Shown piece after piece: positions 1,257 through 14,294 of a DNA stretch of 50,842 nucleotides. This stretch comes from Bdellovibrionia bacterium. Lineage in GTDB: Bacteria; Bdellovibrionota; Bdellovibrionia; Bdellovibrionales; UBA1609. Under the pieces are notes generated by a model. The model was not told the origin of the DNA. It did no database searches and saw only the letters and a program-made list of their open reading frames with translations. The DNA lies in the NCBI GenBank assembly GCA_030432925.1, contig JAUILT010000008.1, positions 1 through 50,842 of the forward strand, written 5' to 3'. How positions within the stretch are numbered: position 1 is the first letter of the stretch; every line of letters begins with the position of its first letter. Made by a program: the position numbers and the translations under genes.

Positions 1257-2372
1257 TCAAATATTGTTTAAATGGTTTTTATCTAAATGTGGCTGTACTT
1301 CAGTACAAAAAAGAGCATTAACTATATCGCCAGTTAATTCATCTTTTTCACATAGTTCTTTAGCAATCAGCTCTATTGCTGGTTTAACTGGTTCCAACAC
1401 ATCTATGCAATCTCCCATCTTGTGGTTGAGATAGGACCTCACAAATGGATTTTTAATCATATTCATTGAACCTGCTTCTGGAACCTGAAGGGTTGAAACC
1501 CATTTTTTGAAATCCTCAATTTGCAACAAATCTTCAGTTATTTTGGCCGCAACAGCAAGATCATCGCCACCAATATTTGCTACATCATAAAATAGAATTT
1601 CACTAGCATATCCACCCAAAGCAATCATGATTCTCTGGATAGCTTTTTCTCCTGTAAATTTAACACCGGGATCGTCTGGCTCTAATTTCAAAAAGGCACG
1701 ATACTTCTCCGCCCCTGAAAGGGATGCTATGCCTTTAAGTGAAATTTCCTGAATTCTCTGGCCAAATCTCAAAGTCATCAATGCATGACCTGTTTCATGA
1801 CGTGCTATTTTTAATTTCTTCCACTCAAACGCTTCATTTAAAATCTCAGCTATTAAATCAGATTTTCCTTCAGAATATTTAGTACGCTCCTCGGAATGGG
1901 CTTCTGCCAGTTTCATTTTCAGTTCCTGATATCGGAATGATGCCTCGGGTGAAGCTCTTAGGTAATCCCGAAAAACAATATGCTTTTCAACTTCACTATC
2001 ATTTTTTTCAAATACATGAAGATGGATTAAACCAAATTCTTCATTCTTGTCATAAAGAACACAATACCGTCTGTTAGCGATTCCATACTCACCCTTCCAT
2101 ACAAAGCCCAACGCTTCCAGGTAGGCCCTGAAGTTATCAAAAATTTGAATTGAAGGAACTATTCCAAGAATATCTAAGATTGGTTTGGCATGAATATTAG
2201 GAATTGAGGTGCTGCCTATGTGGTGCAGATCCAATTCTGAAGAGATACTTTCTATCAGGGTTTCCCTAGCTATTAAAAATGCCTTAGACCAATTGGGATT
2301 GTGAGCAGATAAAGAAATGGTCTTTCGACTCATCCCCAGGCTTTGCTTTTCTATCTGCTCGCGTAATGACAT
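1257..2372 (-). CDS. GrpB-family nucleotidyltransferase fused to an FtsH-type M41 metallopeptidase domain
   Basis: Two domains are visible. Residues ~20-180 are GrpB/UPF0157: 'HNPNWSKAF', the signature HIGSTSIP at 51-58 and 'KPILDILG' at 63-70. This fold belongs to the nucleotidyltransferase superfamily; its substrates are mostly unknown. Residues ~185-350 resemble the protease domain of FtsH (peptidase M41). The zinc motif HETGH is at 192-196, preceded by 'KKLKIAR', and a helix 'ALGGYASEILF' leads to 'IGGDDL' near 268-272, where FtsH carries the third zinc ligand (Asp). There is no AAA+ ATPase domain and no membrane segment. Key residues of both domains are present, so both may be active. 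The ATG directly follows the stop codon of the yciI-like gene (TGA-ATG), so translation is probably coupled. It is the last gene of an eight-gene operon. Confidence 0.8.
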   Translation of the reverse strand: MSLREQIEKQSLGMSRKTISLSAHNPNWSKAFLIARETLIESISSELDLHHIGSTSIPNIHAKPILDILGIVPSIQIFDNFRAYLEALGFVWKGEYGIANRRYCVLYDKNEEFGLIHLHVFEKNDSEVEKHIVFRDYLRASPEASFRYQELKMKLAEAHSEERTKYSEGKSDLIAEILNEAFEWKKLKIARHETGHALMTLRFGQRIQEISLKGIASLSGAEKYRAFLKLEPDDPGVKFTGEKAIQRIMIALGGYASEILFYDVANIGGDDLAVAAKITEDLLQIEDFKKWVSTLQVPEAGSMNMIKNPFVRSYLNHKMGDCIDVLEPVKPAIELIAKELCEKDELTGDIVNALFCTEVQPHLDKNHLNNI

Positions 2373-4689: not shown

Positions 4690-5469
4690 TCAGACTACCT
4701 TACGAATCGAACTACCCATACTACCAGCCAAGCGATACTCGGCTTCTTCTAATGGCAACCAATAGCAATGAAAATTCATCCCTTTGTCTAAGCCATCCCC
4801 ACCCACTTTATGGACCCATTTTTCAGGGATCGCTTCTCCTGCTTCAAGTAAATAAACGTGGCGGCGATTGAGCTGACTATGAGTATTTCTATACATTAGG
4901 TATTGATCTATTTTTTCAATGACTTTCACGTTAGATAGACCGACTTCTTCTGAGACTTCACGTAACACAGCAACTTTAGGGTCTTCTCCAGCGTCCACCG
5001 TGCCCGCTGGGACCTGTATACCAGCTTCACTCCATTCTTTGTCATGCTCAAATACAACAAGGTCTCTCTTGTTATTTCTAAGTACGTAGGCCACAACTTT
5101 GTCCACTATAGGAATAGACGTCAGACTTTCACAGAACTGTTCCCACTCAAGATCAGTCGATTGTTGATGAGAGCTGCAGATGATTTGAAATTCATCTTGG
5201 TAATATACTTCGTTTGGATCATCTAGTTTAAGGACTGCGAGAGGTTCTCTAACAACTGATCTATGCCATTCTTGAAGTCCTGATGAAAGATAGGTTTCTA
5301 CCCCTTTCTCAGTCCAAAATGAAATGGCTCCCGGATATTTTTCTCCAACTTTAGGGAGCCATGCGCCGTCTGGCTTGAGTTGTCTTCTTTTGTCATCCCT
5401 TGGGCACCATTTCTCGACGGCTTCATAAATGCCTCTGTCGCCACTGAGAAATCTGAAATATGAAGCCAT
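4690..5469 (-). CDS. NUDIX hydrolase with an unrecognised N-terminal domain
   Basis: A perfect Nudix box (G-x5-E-x7-REVxEEVGL) lies at residues 156-178, so the C-terminal half should hydrolyse a nucleoside-diphosphate-linked substrate with a divalent metal. The first ~100 residues are not the usual Nudix N-terminus and I do not recognise them. They contain 'GDRGIYEAVEKWCPRDD' and 'WHRSVVREPLAVLKLDD', suggesting a separate small domain. The start overlaps the stop of the upstream cupin-GNAT gene as TGATG, which fixes it. The length of 259 residues is long for a simple MutT-like enzyme. Confidence 0.87.
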   Translation of the reverse strand: MASYFRFLSGDRGIYEAVEKWCPRDDKRRQLKPDGAWLPKVGEKYPGAISFWTEKGVETYLSSGLQEWHRSVVREPLAVLKLDDPNEVYYQDEFQIICSSHQQSTDLEWEQFCESLTSIPIVDKVVAYVLRNNKRDLVVFEHDKEWSEAGIQVPAGTVDAGEDPKVAVLREVSEEVGLSNVKVIEKIDQYLMYRNTHSQLNRRHVYLLEAGEAIPEKWVHKVGGDGLDKGMNFHCYWLPLEEAEYRLAGSMGSSIRKVV

Positions 5470-7067
5470 CAGTTCACCCCCAACACCTTATCAAATTCAC
5501 GAACATTGGCGGTCTTTTCTTCACCTTTCCATTCATAGGTTTTGCCATTGGACTCAAACCCCATTTTCATCCAAAAATCAGAGACATCATTTTCATCGGA
5601 AACGCCAAGTCTTATTTTCTTACATTCTAAGGCCCGCTTGATGTAGTCTTCCGCTAACTCATAACTCTTACGGCCCAAGCCCTTACCGAACTGATTTTCT
5701 TCAAGAAGCAATAGGCCTAAATAGCAAACGCCTTCTTCTGGATGGTTGGCATGAAGATCCAAAATTCCAATGGGCCTTTCTTCATGCTCGATGACCAAAA
5801 ACTCTTTAAAATACTTCTCATTTGTTTTTTTCGGACCATCAACCAGAGAATGCTTTGCCGTTTTCTCCGTCGGTAAACAGCCGTCCACTTTTATAAAATA
5901 GTTCGGTGATTTTTTGAAAATATCTAAAACCTCATTTACATTTTCTTCAGAACAAACTCGAAATGACAGATGCCCTCCAAAGGGTCGATTAGGTTTTCCT
6001 CTGTGAGACCCTATATCAAGTTGCGGTACGTCCTCCCAAAGCCAACCTTTGCGAGCACATTCTTTGTTTCTTAGTGGGTTTAATGGATAGGTGATTTTTT
6101 CCTGTTTGAAGTCTTCAGCTTCTCCTATGCAAATATAAATGACATCTTCATCAGTGTCGTTAATGACTGTGTGTGATATGCCTGTATTAGAAGAAAATGC
6201 TGCAAAGTAACCTTCCTCAACTTGTTTTGCAAAACCGTCCATCCATATCGTAGGGCGTCCTTTGAGAACATAAACAAACTCTTCTTCATGGGTATGCGCA
6301 TGAGGAAACGCACTTCGCCTTCCAGGTGGTAAGCACTCGTACCAGATACCAAGAGCTTTTAATCCAACTTTATCTGTAATACGAAAGCCTGTCCCAAAAG
6401 CTTCATTGTCACCGGGGTAGTGAAAGACTTTTCCTTTTTCGACATCGGGACAGTAAATGAGACATTCTGGGCTATCGGTCCCACGCTCTGATTGCTTTAC
6501 CAACCCTGGCAACCCATTGTGTGAACCTAAACTGTGGACAGGGGCTTCTCCCCACCAAATACCACAGCTTTCTTTTAATTCTGGATTGATCGGAAAGGAA
6601 CAAAGATTTTCTGGCTTGGTTTTCTCTCCAGCAACAAGCAAATGAATGTCTTCATCAGTATTGTTGATAAAGGTGTGGGCAATACCTGTACCTGCAGGAA
6701 AACCAACAGCATGGCCCTCCTTTAAATCATAAATATAACCGTTGATCCATAAGTGAGGATTTCCCTTTAAAACAAATACAAACTCTTCTTCAAGGCTTTC
6801 TGCATGAGGAGAAGATGTGCGGCAACCAGAAGGCAGCACCATATGGTGAACAGCCACTCGGCTAAATCCCACCTTTCTTCCAATATCAGAATCAATAACT
6901 TTGATACCATTTTCCTGTACTTTATCCACACTCGCAGGATCTTGATATTTGGTGAAGTGATTCACATATTTATCGAACTTCTCATTCCATGTCTGCACGA
7001 CATAGTCCCCTAAACTATTATTTCCTAAAAAACCTCGGAACCTGGTGGAACCAGTGTCCGAAGTCAC
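5469..7067 (-). CDS. Two tandem cupin domains fused to a GNAT acetyltransferase
   Basis: The first cupin (about residues 75-150) has 'HAESLEEEFVFVLKGNPHLWINGYIYDLKEGHAVGF' split by short loops, then 'AGTGIAHTFINNTDED'. The second (about 240-310) repeats it with 'FPHAHTHEEEFVYVLKG' and 'NTGISHTVINDTDED'. Both keep the His/Glu metal ligands. The C-terminal ~130 residues form a GNAT fold ('GLLLLEENQFGKGLGRKSYELA', 'VSDFWMKMGFESNG'). Substrates are unknown. This is the first gene of the operon. A TATAAT-like element sits 10-20 bases before the GTG at 7067, so the mRNA would be nearly leaderless from there. A GTG at residue 24, preceded by AGGGGA, is a plausible alternative start. Confidence 0.85.
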   Translation of the reverse strand: MTSDTGSTRFRGFLGNNSLGDYVVQTWNEKFDKYVNHFTKYQDPASVDKVQENGIKVIDSDIGRKVGFSRVAVHHMVLPSGCRTSSPHAESLEEEFVFVLKGNPHLWINGYIYDLKEGHAVGFPAGTGIAHTFINNTDEDIHLLVAGEKTKPENLCSFPINPELKESCGIWWGEAPVHSLGSHNGLPGLVKQSERGTDSPECLIYCPDVEKGKVFHYPGDNEAFGTGFRITDKVGLKALGIWYECLPPGRRSAFPHAHTHEEEFVYVLKGRPTIWMDGFAKQVEEGYFAAFSSNTGISHTVINDTDEDVIYICIGEAEDFKQEKITYPLNPLRNKECARKGWLWEDVPQLDIGSHRGKPNRPFGGHLSFRVCSEENVNEVLDIFKKSPNYFIKVDGCLPTEKTAKHSLVDGPKKTNEKYFKEFLVIEHEERPIGILDLHANHPEEGVCYLGLLLLEENQFGKGLGRKSYELAEDYIKRALECKKIRLGVSDENDVSDFWMKMGFESNGKTYEWKGEEKTANVREFDKVLGVN

Positions 7068-10532: not shown

Positions 10533-11354
10533 GTGTCTTATCCGATTACTCAACGGGATATTGCTGTTTTAAATGCCATTGATGACTTTGGATTTTTGAC
10601 AACGGAGCAAATCAGGAGACTCTATTTTTCGGATTGTCATCGTTCTGTTGTCTATCGACGACTGGGGATTTTGCATAAAAGAAAGCTCTTAAAGTACGCC
10701 ACCACAACAGTTAAAGGTTGTTACATTTGGCGACTGACTTCAAAAGCAGCGTCAGCAATTGGTTCGTCTCATGTGCTTAAAACGATCAATCACAACACCG
10801 TTTACCACGATGTTTTGGCAGCTGAGATCAGGATAATGATGGAAGGCTTAGGAATTGGCTCCAATTGGACTTCGTCGAATAGACTTCTGCGGCAATCTCG
10901 AGAGTCAAATTATTCGAACTTAGAGAATATTCCCGACTGGCTTTTTACATTTCACAACAAGAGTAAAGACATGACATGTGCTCTTGAAGTGGAAATTAGC
11001 CTCAAAACAAAACGAAGAATCAAGGAGACCGTAGAACAGTACCGTGATGGCCGAGGTACTGATATGGTGTGGTATTTTGTCTATTCTAAAAAGATGGGTG
11101 AGCTTTTTCAAAATAAACTGCGTCCTTATATCACGGAGCCTAATGCACAAGGGTGGCTTCATTACACCCTTATCAATGATTTTTTAAGCGATCCACTAAA
11201 AGCGAAAATTCACACAATGAATCCCAGCTTTGAAATCGGAAGCGTGTGTAATCCGAAAAAGTTAAATCAAAAATTTCCAAGAAATGGGAGCAATACACCT
11301 GTCGACAAAAATGAAACTGAGTCGACAAGTATTCAAGAGGAGAAAAATTTATGA
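10533..11354 (+). CDS. Replication-relaxation family protein
   Basis: The N-terminal 70 residues form a winged helix typical of the Replic_Relax family: 'TQRDIAVLNAIDDFGFLTTEQ', 'IRRLYFSDCHRSVVYRRLGIL', then 'LLKYATTTVKGCYIWRLTSKA'. Next come 'HNTVYHDVLAAEIRIMM' and a nuclease-like core 'IPDWLFTF...CALEVEISLKTKRRI'. Members occur on plasmids and integrative elements and are named for a proposed role in relaxing or initiating replication; direct biochemistry is limited. The start is GTG. The last ~40 residues are low-complexity and polar. It overlaps the next gene by four bases (ATGA). Confidence 0.75.
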   Translation: MSYPITQRDIAVLNAIDDFGFLTTEQIRRLYFSDCHRSVVYRRLGILHKRKLLKYATTTVKGCYIWRLTSKAASAIGSSHVLKTINHNTVYHDVLAAEIRIMMEGLGIGSNWTSSNRLLRQSRESNYSNLENIPDWLFTFHNKSKDMTCALEVEISLKTKRRIKETVEQYRDGRGTDMVWYFVYSKKMGELFQNKLRPYITEPNAQGWLHYTLINDFLSDPLKAKIHTMNPSFEIGSVCNPKKLNQKFPRNGSNTPVDKNETESTSIQEEKNL

Positions 11355-11605
11355 ATTTTTATAAGGCTTTAAATTCACTTAGGAAATCAAAGTTTCAGAA
11401 AAATCAAAGTTGTTGTTCTGAAACTGACACCTTACGGGGGGATTCTAAGGGGGTGTATGGGTACAAATATTGGTTTCAAAACAGATCTGATTTTTATTTT
11501 TCAGGAAGGAACTTTCTTATGACCCTAGCTAATCATTTATTTGTTCCCTTTTATAGTGCGTTTTATCTCGCTATTTATAAAGCTGGGTTGTTCACTATCA
11601 CATGA
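11351..11605 (+). CDS. Small unrecognised protein (84 aa) in the recombinase operon
   Basis: No family is recognised. The reality of the gene is supported by four-base ATGA overlaps at both ends: with the replication-relaxation gene (11351-11354) and with the 52-residue gene (11602-11605). Upstream, 'CAAGAGGAGAAAAATTT' provides a good ribosome binding site. The product is basic at its N-terminus and has a hydrophobic C-terminal stretch (FLMTLANHLFVPFYSAFYLA) that could be a membrane helix. Confidence 0.5.
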   Translation: MNFYKALNSLRKSKFQKNQSCCSETDTLRGDSKGVYGYKYWFQNRSDFYFSGRNFLMTLANHLFVPFYSAFYLAIYKAGLFTIT

Positions 11606-11760
11606 AACAGTGGCAGCCCGAGATTGTTGGGCTTTCATTTGAATCTCTCACTGAAGAGGAGTTTGAAATTTTACTTGAGGAGCTTGTGGAAATTATATAT
11701 TCTCAGATTTGCCAACAAAACCGAGCCACCGATTCTCTCAAATCAAAAGGAGAGAAATAA
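11602..11760 (+). CDS. Small acidic protein (52 aa) directly upstream of the recombinase
   Basis: The frame begins ATG 11602, overlapping the previous stop as ATGA, and ends TAA 11758-11760, overlapping the recombinase ATG as TAATG. The product starts MKQWQPEIVGLSFESL and is dominated by acidic helix-forming residues (TEEEFEILLEELVEII). No family is recognised. The double overlap is the evidence that it is translated; its position suggests a regulator or partner of the recombinase, which is inference. Confidence 0.55.
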   Translation: MKQWQPEIVGLSFESLTEEEFEILLEELVEIIYSQICQQNRATDSLKSKGEK

Positions 11761-13502
11761 TGTCATCGGTATTGAAATCAAATCGAGATTATTCAAAAGC
11801 AAAAAAAATCGGGCTTTATATCAGAGTTTCAACCCAAGAGCAGGCCGCCAATCCAGAAGGATCCATCAAAAGTCAGGAGCAAAGGCTTCGGCAGGCTGTA
11901 AAGTTTCGCAATTTTGATGAACCTTTTGGAGAAGTAAAGCGAGTTTTTATTGACCGAGCCAAGTCTGGCAAGGATACCAAAAGGCCTGCACTTCAAGAAA
12001 TGCTCAAAAGCATCAAATCTGGTGAGATTGATTTAGTGATGGTGACTGAACTTTCCCGTCTTTCAAGATCATTGAAAGATTTTTGTGAGATGTTTTATAT
12101 GATGAAAGAGCTTGGATGTGGCTTTCAAAGTCTCAGGGAGCAGTATGACACCACCACTGCTGCGGGAGAGATGATTCTCTACACCGTGGCCAATTTGGCG
12201 CAATTTGAACGCCGCCAAACCAGTGAACGGATTGCTGCTAACTTTCATGCAAGATCCCAACGTGGGCTTTACAACGGTGGCCCTGTGCCACTTGGCTATA
12301 AACTCATCCCTGAAAAGCGAGGATATTTGGCAATTGATGAAGAACCAGCATTGATTGTGAAAGAAACCTTTAAAACATTTTTAAAAGAAGGCTCTTTGGC
12401 TCAAGCGGGGAAATCGCTCAATGATCGTGGGTTTAAAATAAAAAAGAAAACCACGGGCGGAGGTGATAAACGCCTTGGTTATTTTACCACCGATAACCTT
12501 CATGGGATTCTCACAAGAGTGGCCTATATTGGCAAAAAGGCGGTGAAAAATCGAAGTGGTGAGATAGAATTAGTTGATGCCTGTTGGCCAGCGATTGTTG
12601 ACGAAAAAACCTTTTATCGAGTGGGAGACATTTTAAAGAAAAACCATAGGAGGTTTAAGCCAAACTCACGAAGGCGCTACCCTTATTTATTATCACGCCT
12701 CACCTCATGCGGTGTTTGCGGAGATCGGCTGACTGGAAAGTCGGCACATGGGCAAAGTGGTAAGGTTCCTTACTACGAGCATGGTTGGGCAACCAGAAAA
12801 CAGAGCTGCCAAACAAAAAAATTTTTTAAATGTGAAAATCACAAGAGATTTCAGGCAAGAAAGCTTGAGCCTGCTGTTTGGAGTGAAATCGAAAAGCTTC
12901 TTTCAAGTGATATTTTCGCTCAAAAACTCACTGAGAAGGCAAAGTCCATGTACAAGCCTTTGAGTCAGGATCTCGCTAAAAATAAGCTTAGAGAGAAGTC
13001 TGTGGCGTTTGATAGGCAATTGGAAGCTTTAGCAGAACATTTAACCAAATTACCAATGGATGTGAGTCCTCAACCCGTTTTTAATCAAATGCAGAAGATT
13101 GAAAAACTAAAAAAGGAAGTAGGAAAGGAAATAGACGCGTTAGGTGAAAAGGAGATTAAGAACCAACCTCCCATTGATTTTGATAATTATAAGGATTTTT
13201 TAAGAAAGTTTAAAAAGTCACTAAAGGGTGAAGACGGTCCTGAAGTGAAAAGAAAAATAGCTGAAAAGCTAATTCATAAAATTGAGCTTTTGCCAGAAGG
13301 CTTTAAGCTGCATTTTTATATGAGGGCAGGACATTTTGACGACCCAAGTTTGGGACAGAAAAAAAGCATAAAAAAAGGGGTTAGCATTCGAGCTAACCCC
13401 AGTTCAGGTCCTTCGGCTGCGCCTCAGGACGACATGTCTAAACTTTTCGGTTCGAATAGTTTGACAAATGGTGGGGCGGCGGGAATCGAACCGGGGTCCT
13501 AA
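11760..13502 (+). CDS. Large serine recombinase with altered C-terminus
   Basis: The resolvase catalytic domain begins 'KKIGLYIRVSTQEQAA' with the nucleophilic Ser at residue 24. It is followed by 'SRLSRSLKDFCEMFYMM' and the Recombinase domain from about residue 175 ('YNGGPVPLGYKLIPEKRGYL'). A zinc beta-ribbon (Cys ~317, Cys ~320, and Cys pair near 349-357) and a coiled-coil segment complete the large serine integrase layout. ATG 11760 has AGGAG upstream and overlaps the previous stop; an upstream in-frame ATG at 11709 is less likely. The last ~40 residues are encoded by an opposite-strand terminator, a REP-like palindrome and a tRNA/tmRNA 3'-end remnant, so the native C-terminus is probably lost or extended. 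Confidence 0.88.
   Translation: MSSVLKSNRDYSKAKKIGLYIRVSTQEQAANPEGSIKSQEQRLRQAVKFRNFDEPFGEVKRVFIDRAKSGKDTKRPALQEMLKSIKSGEIDLVMVTELSRLSRSLKDFCEMFYMMKELGCGFQSLREQYDTTTAAGEMILYTVANLAQFERRQTSERIAANFHARSQRGLYNGGPVPLGYKLIPEKRGYLAIDEEPALIVKETFKTFLKEGSLAQAGKSLNDRGFKIKKKTTGGGDKRLGYFTTDNLHGILTRVAYIGKKAVKNRSGEIELVDACWPAIVDEKTFYRVGDILKKNHRRFKPNSRRRYPYLLSRLTSCGVCGDRLTGKSAHGQSGKVPYYEHGWATRKQSCQTKKFFKCENHKRFQARKLEPAVWSEIEKLLSSDIFAQKLTEKAKSMYKPLSQDLAKNKLREKSVAFDRQLEALAEHLTKLPMDVSPQPVFNQMQKIEKLKKEVGKEIDALGEKEIKNQPPIDFDNYKDFLRKFKKSLKGEDGPEVKRKIAEKLIHKIELLPEGFKLHFYMRAGHFDDPSLGQKKSIKKGVSIRANPSSGPSAAPQDDMSKLFGSNSLTNGGAAGIEPGS
13370..13400 (-). terminator. Rho-independent terminator on the minus strand
   Basis: A perfect 9-base stem GGGGTTAGC/GCTAACCCC with a six-base loop is followed on the minus strand by seven T residues. 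It lies inside the recombinase reading frame on the opposite strand. It would terminate transcripts arriving from the right, such as the original transcript of the gene whose 3' end remains at 13469-13492. Confidence 0.75.
13407..13436. repeat. REP-like palindrome
   Basis: GTCCT...AGGAC flanks a G+C-rich core (TTCGGCTGCGCCTC), forming a small imperfect hairpin followed by GACATG. It resembles short interspersed extragenic palindromes found between genes in many environmental bacteria. It is out of place inside a coding frame. Only one copy is seen in this window. Confidence 0.4.
13469..13492 (-). other. tRNA/tmRNA 3'-end remnant, probable attachment site
   Basis: On the minus strand these 24 bases read as a T-loop (GGTTCGATTCC), an acceptor 3' strand (CGCCGCCCC) and A-CCA. 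The bases 5' of it do not complete a T-stem, so this is only a fragment. The 18-base core GGCGGCGGGAATCGAACC matches the 3' end of ssrA (16509-16526) at 17 of 18 positions in the same orientation. It is best read as one att half left by insertion at the ssrA or a tRNA 3' end. Confidence 0.65.
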
Positions 13503-13536
13503 AATTACATATCATATTGAAATCACGAATGGAAAT

Positions 13537-13571
13537 AAAAAAAGGGCTTTGGCCAAATGGACCAAAACCCC
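13537..13571 (-). terminator. Probable rho-independent terminator on the minus strand
   Basis: The minus strand reads GGGGTTTTGG, a short loop region, then CCAAAGCCC and a run of seven T. The stem is imperfect. Together with the terminator at 13370-13400 it brackets the att-like fragment. Confidence 0.5.
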
Positions 13572-13624
13572 TATAAGTCGAGTATGTTGAAGTTGATTTG
13601 AAGTCAGAATTTATGAAATAATTA

Positions 13625-13653
13625 TTTACTGTATTACCGTAATACAGTATACT
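13625..13653 (+). promoter_or_regulatory. higBA promoter with a 23-base palindromic operator
   Basis: TTTACT (13625-13630), a 17-base spacer and TATACT (13648-13653) form a promoter. A palindrome with 11-base arms and a single central base spans 13627-13649 (arm TACTGTATTAC), covering the whole spacer and touching both boxes. The antitoxin encoded downstream is the likely repressor. GGAG before ATG 13680 is the ribosome binding site. Confidence 0.7.
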
Positions 13654-13679
13654 CTATAGAGGCTTCGGAGAATTACAGC

Positions 13680-13976
13680 ATGATCAGTTACTTTGGTAAT
13701 AAAATAGCTTCAGATTTATTCCATAAGGGAGAATCAAATAAAATTCCGAGACAGTATTGGAAAAGAGCTATTCATTTGCTTGAAGTTATGGATGTGGTTG
13801 ATTCTCTTGAAGACTTAAAAAGGAATGGCTTTCCTCCCAGCGTGAGACTTCATCCTTTGACTCATGATCGCAAAGGAACTTGGGCGATTGATATACACAA
13901 AACCTCTGGGTGGAGAATCACTTTTTCTTTCGAGAGTAATGAATTTGTGAACGTTAAAATTGAGGATTATCATTAG
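13680..13976 (+). CDS. higB: HigB-type toxin, RelE superfamily
   Basis: A 98-residue toxin of the HigB (plasmid maintenance killer) family, expected to cleave mRNA in a ribosome-dependent manner. Visible features are 'MISYFGNKIASDLFHKG', 'PRQYWKRAIHLLEVMD', 'VRLHPLTHDRKGTWAIDI' and the C-terminal 'GWRITFSFESNEFVNVKIEDYH', which is the HigB signature. The order toxin first, antitoxin second is standard for higBA. The antitoxin starts nine bases after the stop. Confidence 0.88.
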   Translation: MISYFGNKIASDLFHKGESNKIPRQYWKRAIHLLEVMDVVDSLEDLKRNGFPPSVRLHPLTHDRKGTWAIDIHKTSGWRITFSFESNEFVNVKIEDYH

Positions 13977-13985
13977 GAGAATATT

Positions 13986-14294
13986 ATGGCTATCTACAAG
14001 AAGAAAAGACCTATCCGAAAGCCTTCTCATCCAGGTGAGATATTAAAAAGTTTATGGTTAGATGAGCTGGGGCACAGTCAGTCTACATTTGCTGATTTAT
14101 TGGTTGATGCTTCAAAAGGTGCTGTTAAAAAGTCCACGATGCAAACTAAACTCAATGAAGTTATCTCTGGAAAAAGAGCAATGAGCGCTGATTTTGCCGT
14201 ACTCATTAGTAAGGTTTTAAAAACTGAACCCAAAATGTGGATGAACTTGCAAGTTCAACTGGATATTTGGGAAGCTGAAGAAAAGGTTGCCTAA
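13986..14294 (+). CDS. higA: HigA-type antitoxin, helix-turn-helix
   Basis: A 102-residue HigA/VapI-family antitoxin. 'PSHPGEILKSLWLDELGHSQ' is the family N-terminus. The helix-turn-helix follows ('STFADLLVD...TKLNEVISGKRAMSADFAVLISKVL') and the C-terminus carries 'EPKMWMNLQVQLDIWEAEE'. A Lys-rich insertion near residues 38-44 (SKGAVKKST) is longer than usual in this turn. It should bind HigB and repress the palindromic promoter upstream. The gene ends four bases inside the convergent AraC-family gene. Confidence 0.88.
   Translation: MAIYKKKRPIRKPSHPGEILKSLWLDELGHSQSTFADLLVDASKGAVKKSTMQTKLNEVISGKRAMSADFAVLISKVLKTEPKMWMNLQVQLDIWEAEEKVA

Follow-up and report, generated by a model that had tools for sequence, protein, structure and literature searches.

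The window, by which we mean the whole 50,842-nucleotide stretch of Bdellovibrionia DNA analysed here, carries on its reverse strand a single open frame of 371 codons, which begins with an ATG directly 3' of the stop codon of a YCII gene and contains no internal stop. Its translation matches two Pfam families above their cut-offs: GrpB (PF04229) with 147 bits (cut-off 25.5, E 6.7e-43) and Peptidase_M41 (PF01434) with 32.4 bits (cut-off 29.9, E 1e-7). The M41 half scanned by itself scores 34.4 bits, while Peptidase_M50B gives a weaker match that lies below its own cut-off. The genome holds one further FtsH, an ordinary one encoded on another contig; a second GrpB was not found in it. Over the initial 3,872 bases of the window, Rfam gave no match. 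Near the enzyme cluster in which the gene lies, a Replic_Relax protein, a large serine recombinase, a HigB-like toxin and then a small gene lie at 10533-14294 (+), showing signs of a mobile element. The features of the fusion gene and of the related loci are collected in Table 1.

Table 1. Features of the GrpB-M41 fusion gene in the window, GrpB fusions of the phylum and of a viral contig, and recognised or candidate defence genes near standalone M41 copies.
Feature	Position	Strand	Basis
GrpB-M41 fusion gene, 371 aa	1257..2372	(-)	single open frame; both Pfam domains above cut-off
GrpB domain, residues 19-179, nucleotidyltransferase fold	1836..2318	(-)	Pfam and structure matches
HHIGSTS motif of GrpB, residues 50-56	2205..2225	(-)	alignment, position
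LDILG of GrpB, residues 66-70; D67 kept, Leu as second nucleotidyltransferase (NTase) acid	2163..2177	(-)	alignment, position
Junction of GrpB end into M41 start, no linker	1800..1838	(-)	alignments, start positions, model
Peptidase_M41 domain, residues 185-359, AAA-less small type	1296..1820	(-)	Pfam, relatives, model
HETGH zinc motif, residues 192-196	1785..1799	(-)	alignment with FtsH ligands, position
GGDDL, residues 268-272; D271 likely third zinc ligand	1557..1571	(-)	FtsH ligand column, position
GrpB with C-terminal partner: M41 (window), FMN_red (G060), GNAT (G013), APH (G113), ASCH (G021), NUDIX (G196, G180)			
GrpB with N-terminal partner: GNAT (G165, G192), NTP_transf_2 (G200)			
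GrpB fusion loci (NUDIX, GNAT, NTP_transf_2, FMN_red, APH, ASCH, cytidine deaminase)	L143, L128, L142, L144, L114, L069, L071, L072, L076, L101		
Loci with standalone M41 and defence gene	L057:6793-8894, L058:752-3070, L032:1480-3228, L061:4030-6652, L095:6170-12338, L060:7531-10713		
G078, ThsB-type TIR gene	one gene away		Pfam, 63.7 bits
G063, PD-Lambda-5_A	adjacent gene		502.6 bits
G130, PDC-S02	one gene away		434.6 bits
G136, Abi_2 / PD-T4-5 gene	one gene away		28.3 and 46.5 bits
G165, PDC-S06	about 3 kb away	same strand	658.6 bits
G116, SIR2 gene	about 1.5 kb away	opposite strand	71.3 bits

The M41 half combines an HExxH motif, a downstream Asp ligand placed by alignment, a profile score above the cut-off and a compatible predicted fold. 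When the half is aligned with FtsH proteins and one phage protein, H192, H196 and D271 fall into the zinc-ligand columns of FtsH. D271, the second Asp of GGDDL, shares its column with the Asp of the FtsH 'NDL' motif, and this position is Asp in all 16 aligned rows. The predicted structure of the half (pLDDT 81.8, pTM 0.81) adopts the FtsH-type protease fold, its best PDB matches being chains of FtsH, AFG3L2, YME1 and FtsHi with Z scores of 14-19; since FtsH rows were part of the input alignment of the model, this likeness shows compatibility of the fold and is not independent proof. The model also resembles PDB 5iqj, a Vibrio cholerae protein of 131 residues and unknown function (Z 11.0, 116 aligned residues, rmsd 3.0), which differs from the M41 half in that the two share 13% identity and the family profile described below does not retrieve it.

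The protease domain thus shares HExxH, the downstream Asp ligand and a common fold with FtsH, AFG3L2 and YME1, whereas the fusion differs from them in carrying a GrpB partner and in having neither an AAA+ domain nor a membrane helix. Of the features of FtsH AAA proteases that we looked for, both the AAA+ ATPase domain before M41 and the membrane anchor are missing: the 371 residues contain no P-loop and no AAA Pfam match, and no membrane helix, the highest 19-residue Kyte-Doolittle mean being 1.31. The initial annotation had described one continuous frame joining GrpB to an M41 protease that lacks ATPase and membrane helix and retains its metal ligands. That description stands; its two interpretative suggestions, a nucleotide- or modification-controlled protease and a nucleotidyltransferase domain in the place of the motor, are not supported, as set out below.

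The GrpB half has both a profile score above the cut-off and the known fold of the family. Its model superimposes closely on 2nrk (Z 23.2, rmsd 1.2, 163 aligned residues) and on the mycobacterial CoaE-GrpB structure 6n39 (Z 19.5), with which it shares the fold and the conserved GST and Asp motif. Its likeness to the nucleotidyltransferases Cid1 and pol lambda is middling (Z about 8). Nucleotidyltransferases usually carry a D-x-D/E motif with two acids. The window GrpB reads D67-I-L69 at this place, and Leu is also found in four of five aligned relatives and in 2nrk; the two-acid motif of a catalytic nucleotidyltransferase is therefore absent from the GrpB half.

The M41 score of the fusion lies just 2.5 bits above the cut-off, so that the assignment gains its weight from the relatives of this domain. 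We searched 368 genomes of the phylum with a seven-row alignment; 85 genomes matched at E 1e-9, mostly through FtsH. A distinct family of small M41 proteins was recognised in 13 of the 368 genomes. Seven of these hold an intact standalone copy, one is the genome of the window, and five have broken or truncated copies, some of them cut by contig ends. The eight full-length members score 243-317 bits, against 57 bits for the best FtsH in the same genomes. When the order alone was searched, with four aligned relatives as the query, 12 of 140 genomes gave matches. The seven intact standalone proteins measure 181-204 aa each and all exceed the Pfam M41 cut-off (33.9 to 57.6 bits), which makes firmer the profile similarity seen in the fusion with a narrow margin; none of them has a Pfam AAA domain and none carries GrpB. 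They resemble the window copy in length and in HExxH, with 34-56% identity over the whole domain, and differ from it in being free-standing. A profile built from seven family members retrieves the solved protease domain of FtsH (2di4, E 2.2e-11), with profile positions 5-177 of 186 covered. HExxH is kept in all seven rows of the family alignment, and the third ligand is Asp in six of them and Glu in G028; the G165 protein, which lies outside this alignment, has HETGH and GGDDL. From these comparisons, the M41 half is best classed as a member of a free-standing small M41 family, and the absence of the AAA domain is not peculiar to the fusion.

In a phylogenetic tree, the family is set apart from all FtsH rows (98/97). 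The window copy stands beside the free-standing copy of G078 (92/77, under the star threshold) and groups with that of G165 (98/91); the phage row and G028 sit on long branches, with uncertain placement. Because the tree nests the window copy among free-standing genes that lack AAA, the family most likely lacked this domain before GrpB was joined to it. A history in which a nucleotidyltransferase replaced the motor is therefore not likely: the closest M41 relatives are free-standing and AAA-less, and the window copy lies inside their group.

GrpB itself is found with various partners in the phylum. The 368 genomes gave 68 GrpB matches, some of which are pieces of one gene. Ten of these lie in frames of at least 278 aa, and in each of the ten another Pfam domain exceeds its cut-off. 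As in the window, GrpB is the N-terminal domain and an unrelated enzyme follows it in seven of the ten fusions, the window's counted, although the partner enzyme of the others is a different one (NUDIX, APH, FMN_red, ASCH or GNAT). A viral contig joins GrpB to a cytidine deaminase domain. The partners are mostly small enzymes, of the type that also fills the gene cluster of the window, which holds YCII, GNAT, histidine phosphatase, GNAT, NUDIX and cupin-GNAT genes. The simplest history would be that GrpB fusions arose by the joining of neighbours in such small-enzyme clusters. Since the M41 family is AAA-less and the partners of GrpB are varied, the window gene is well described as a one-off joining of a promiscuous GrpB to an AAA-less protease.

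Within the cluster of the fusion, a multi-domain gene at 5469-7067 (-) encodes two Cupin_2 domains and, after them, a GNAT domain. The GC content of the cluster is 35-43%, whereas the five measured core genes have 45-49%, and the serine recombinase lies nearby, so that, judged from a few genes, the fusion looks to be seated in an acquired island of small enzymes. Four proteins of the window, the fusion included, were scanned with PADLOC and gave no defence match; as far as these proteins tell, the window copy is therefore not in a defence setting.

We looked for further members beyond the genomes of the phylum. Genome contigs searched with the whole fusion gave 29 loci, among which there was neither a second fusion nor a standalone copy: all 29 have the FtsH-type zinc motif and 28 have an AAA motif in frame, the remaining one (L022) starting at a contig end. 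Together with the 368 phylum genomes, where the window copy is the only fused member of the family, this search yielded no other GrpB-M41 fusion. Viral contigs gave no match with single-sequence queries; with alignment queries they gave one phage M41 and nine GrpB loci. The phage gene is a standalone M41-like gene (L099:2962-3471, 169 aa, HEVGH) on a T4-like phage contig that has a Gp23 capsid gene at 446-2095; its product lies under the M41 cut-off (26.9 vs 29.9) and over that of M50B (28.6 vs 26). Phage records contained no match to either the window M41 half or this phage protein, and matches in PHROGs were to families of unknown function only. Plasmids gave one match, an AAA plus M41 frame of 496 aa on a Niveispirillum plasmid (L041:5095-6585) that is absent from the gene table, and a second query matched two annotated ftsH genes. 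Among 395 genomes of a second phylum, the single match was a frame of FtsH length with a P-loop; in 398 genomes of a third phylum the three matches reached at most 65.2 bits, and two of them have a P-loop while the third starts 70 bases from a contig end. The small M41 family was thus not found outside the phylum of the window in these samples and at strict thresholds. In the titles and abstract beginnings of the literature on GrpB/UPF0157, on AAA-less M41 and on M41 with defence, neither a GrpB-M41 fusion nor a standalone M41 family could be recognised, and no name for the family was found.

The junction bears directly on whether the fused gene is real. The seven intact standalone copies have their start codon 9-15 codons ahead of HExxH. 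The M41 part of the fusion thus sets in at about the point where a free gene would start, and no linker separates the halves. These observations would also be expected if the frame were an artefact of assembly or sequencing, or a strain-specific slip, with the cell making a separate GrpB and a separate small M41 from adjacent genes. The fusion was seen once, in one draft assembly; both other genomes of its genus lack the M41 gene; and another GrpB gene in the order of the window, that of G013, is split by a frameshift. We nevertheless consider such an artefact unlikely. The frame stays open over 371 codons with the key residues of both halves all present, and nine other GrpB fusions exist in the phylum. 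Moreover, no in-frame start is left in the 20 codons before HExxH of the fusion, and a separate M41 would have none from which to be translated. Close to the junction there is also an out-of-frame start codon, which might have been a vestige of two once separate genes; we discarded it as uninformative, because 37% of positions in the frame have one.

The M41 half could also be a protease no longer, and persist as a zinc- or peptide-binding remnant or as part of a decaying gene. The broken or truncated copies in five of the 13 genomes, to which contig ends contribute, are in line with such decay, as is the Glu in place of the third-ligand Asp in the standalone copy of G028. The window copy, however, keeps all zinc ligands and 28 of the 33 columns that are invariant in six standalone copies, the zinc motif included, which makes loss of activity in this protein rather improbable.

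The proposal that GrpB senses or attaches nucleotides and thereby switches the protease on or off draws on the nucleotidyltransferase fold of this half and on a single modelled helix (residues 171-198) that spans the join and could couple the domains, with low confidence after residue 190; we hold it to be very improbable, since the second acid is Leu, the GrpB fusions of the phylum involve many unrelated enzymes, the standalone M41 relatives do without GrpB, and the GrpB domain of CoaE served folding, with regulation excluded (PMC2765170). The alignment behind that full-length model contained no M41 rows, and the M41 half of the model is accordingly not interpretable. In the same report, the GrpB (UPF0157) domain of M. 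tuberculosis CoaE is required for a soluble, active kinase and aids the folding of its fused partner, the other roles that were tried, regulation among them, being excluded (PMC2765170). There it is the C-terminal domain (PMC2765170), whereas in the window GrpB is N-terminal and its partner a peptidase.

We therefore favour, with a probability of roughly 0.55, an end-to-start fusion of GrpB to a small AAA-less M41 protein, unique so far and probably recent, in an apparent acquired island, in which the M41 half would be a self-contained zinc peptidase and GrpB an independent or passenger domain rather than a nucleotide switch. The fusion is a novel combination of known parts. The end of a GrpB gene would have been joined to the start of a gene for a small AAA-less M41 metalloprotease, and the cell would make the fused protein. 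Judging from the aligned ligand columns, zinc would be held by H192, H196 and D271, and E193 would activate a water molecule for peptide cleavage. The M41 half may then cut unfolded or otherwise accessible peptides, independently of ATP-driven threading. The GrpB half may assist solubility or folding, or perform small-molecule chemistry of its own.

A recognised or candidate anti-phage defence gene lies near six of the seven intact standalone loci, among neighbours that were picked by hand and scanned in part; near the G028 copy, which is close to a contig end, no defence gene was seen. As a control of only ten neighbours, taken at three GrpB loci, five matched models of HTH, ABC, GTPase and methyltransferase-like proteins and one weak candidate-system model, with a best match of 154.6 bits to an ABC protein; we judge these matches to be generic. 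An all-against-all comparison revealed no partner gene common to the standalone loci, and no PADLOC model matched the window M41 half or any of the seven standalone copies. A tentative extension of our reading, which we regard as possible and still doubtful, is that this unnamed AAA-less mini-M41 family travels with anti-phage defence genes in the phylum, in many cases closing the cluster on its downstream side, and that a T4-like phage carries a counterpart. The family would act in defence, or in phages against defence, through motor-free protein cutting, the window holding a copy captured by a GrpB gene.

The fusion itself mainly shows the readiness of GrpB to join unrelated enzymes. What merits following is the AAA-less M41 family together with its defence neighbourhood. 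M41 is generally regarded as the proteolytic component of an ATP-driven machine. If the extended reading is true, an M41 family that is motor-less by descent, retains the zinc ligands and lies near defence genes would open the question of what M41 cuts without threading, and a role of this family in phage defence would become testable.
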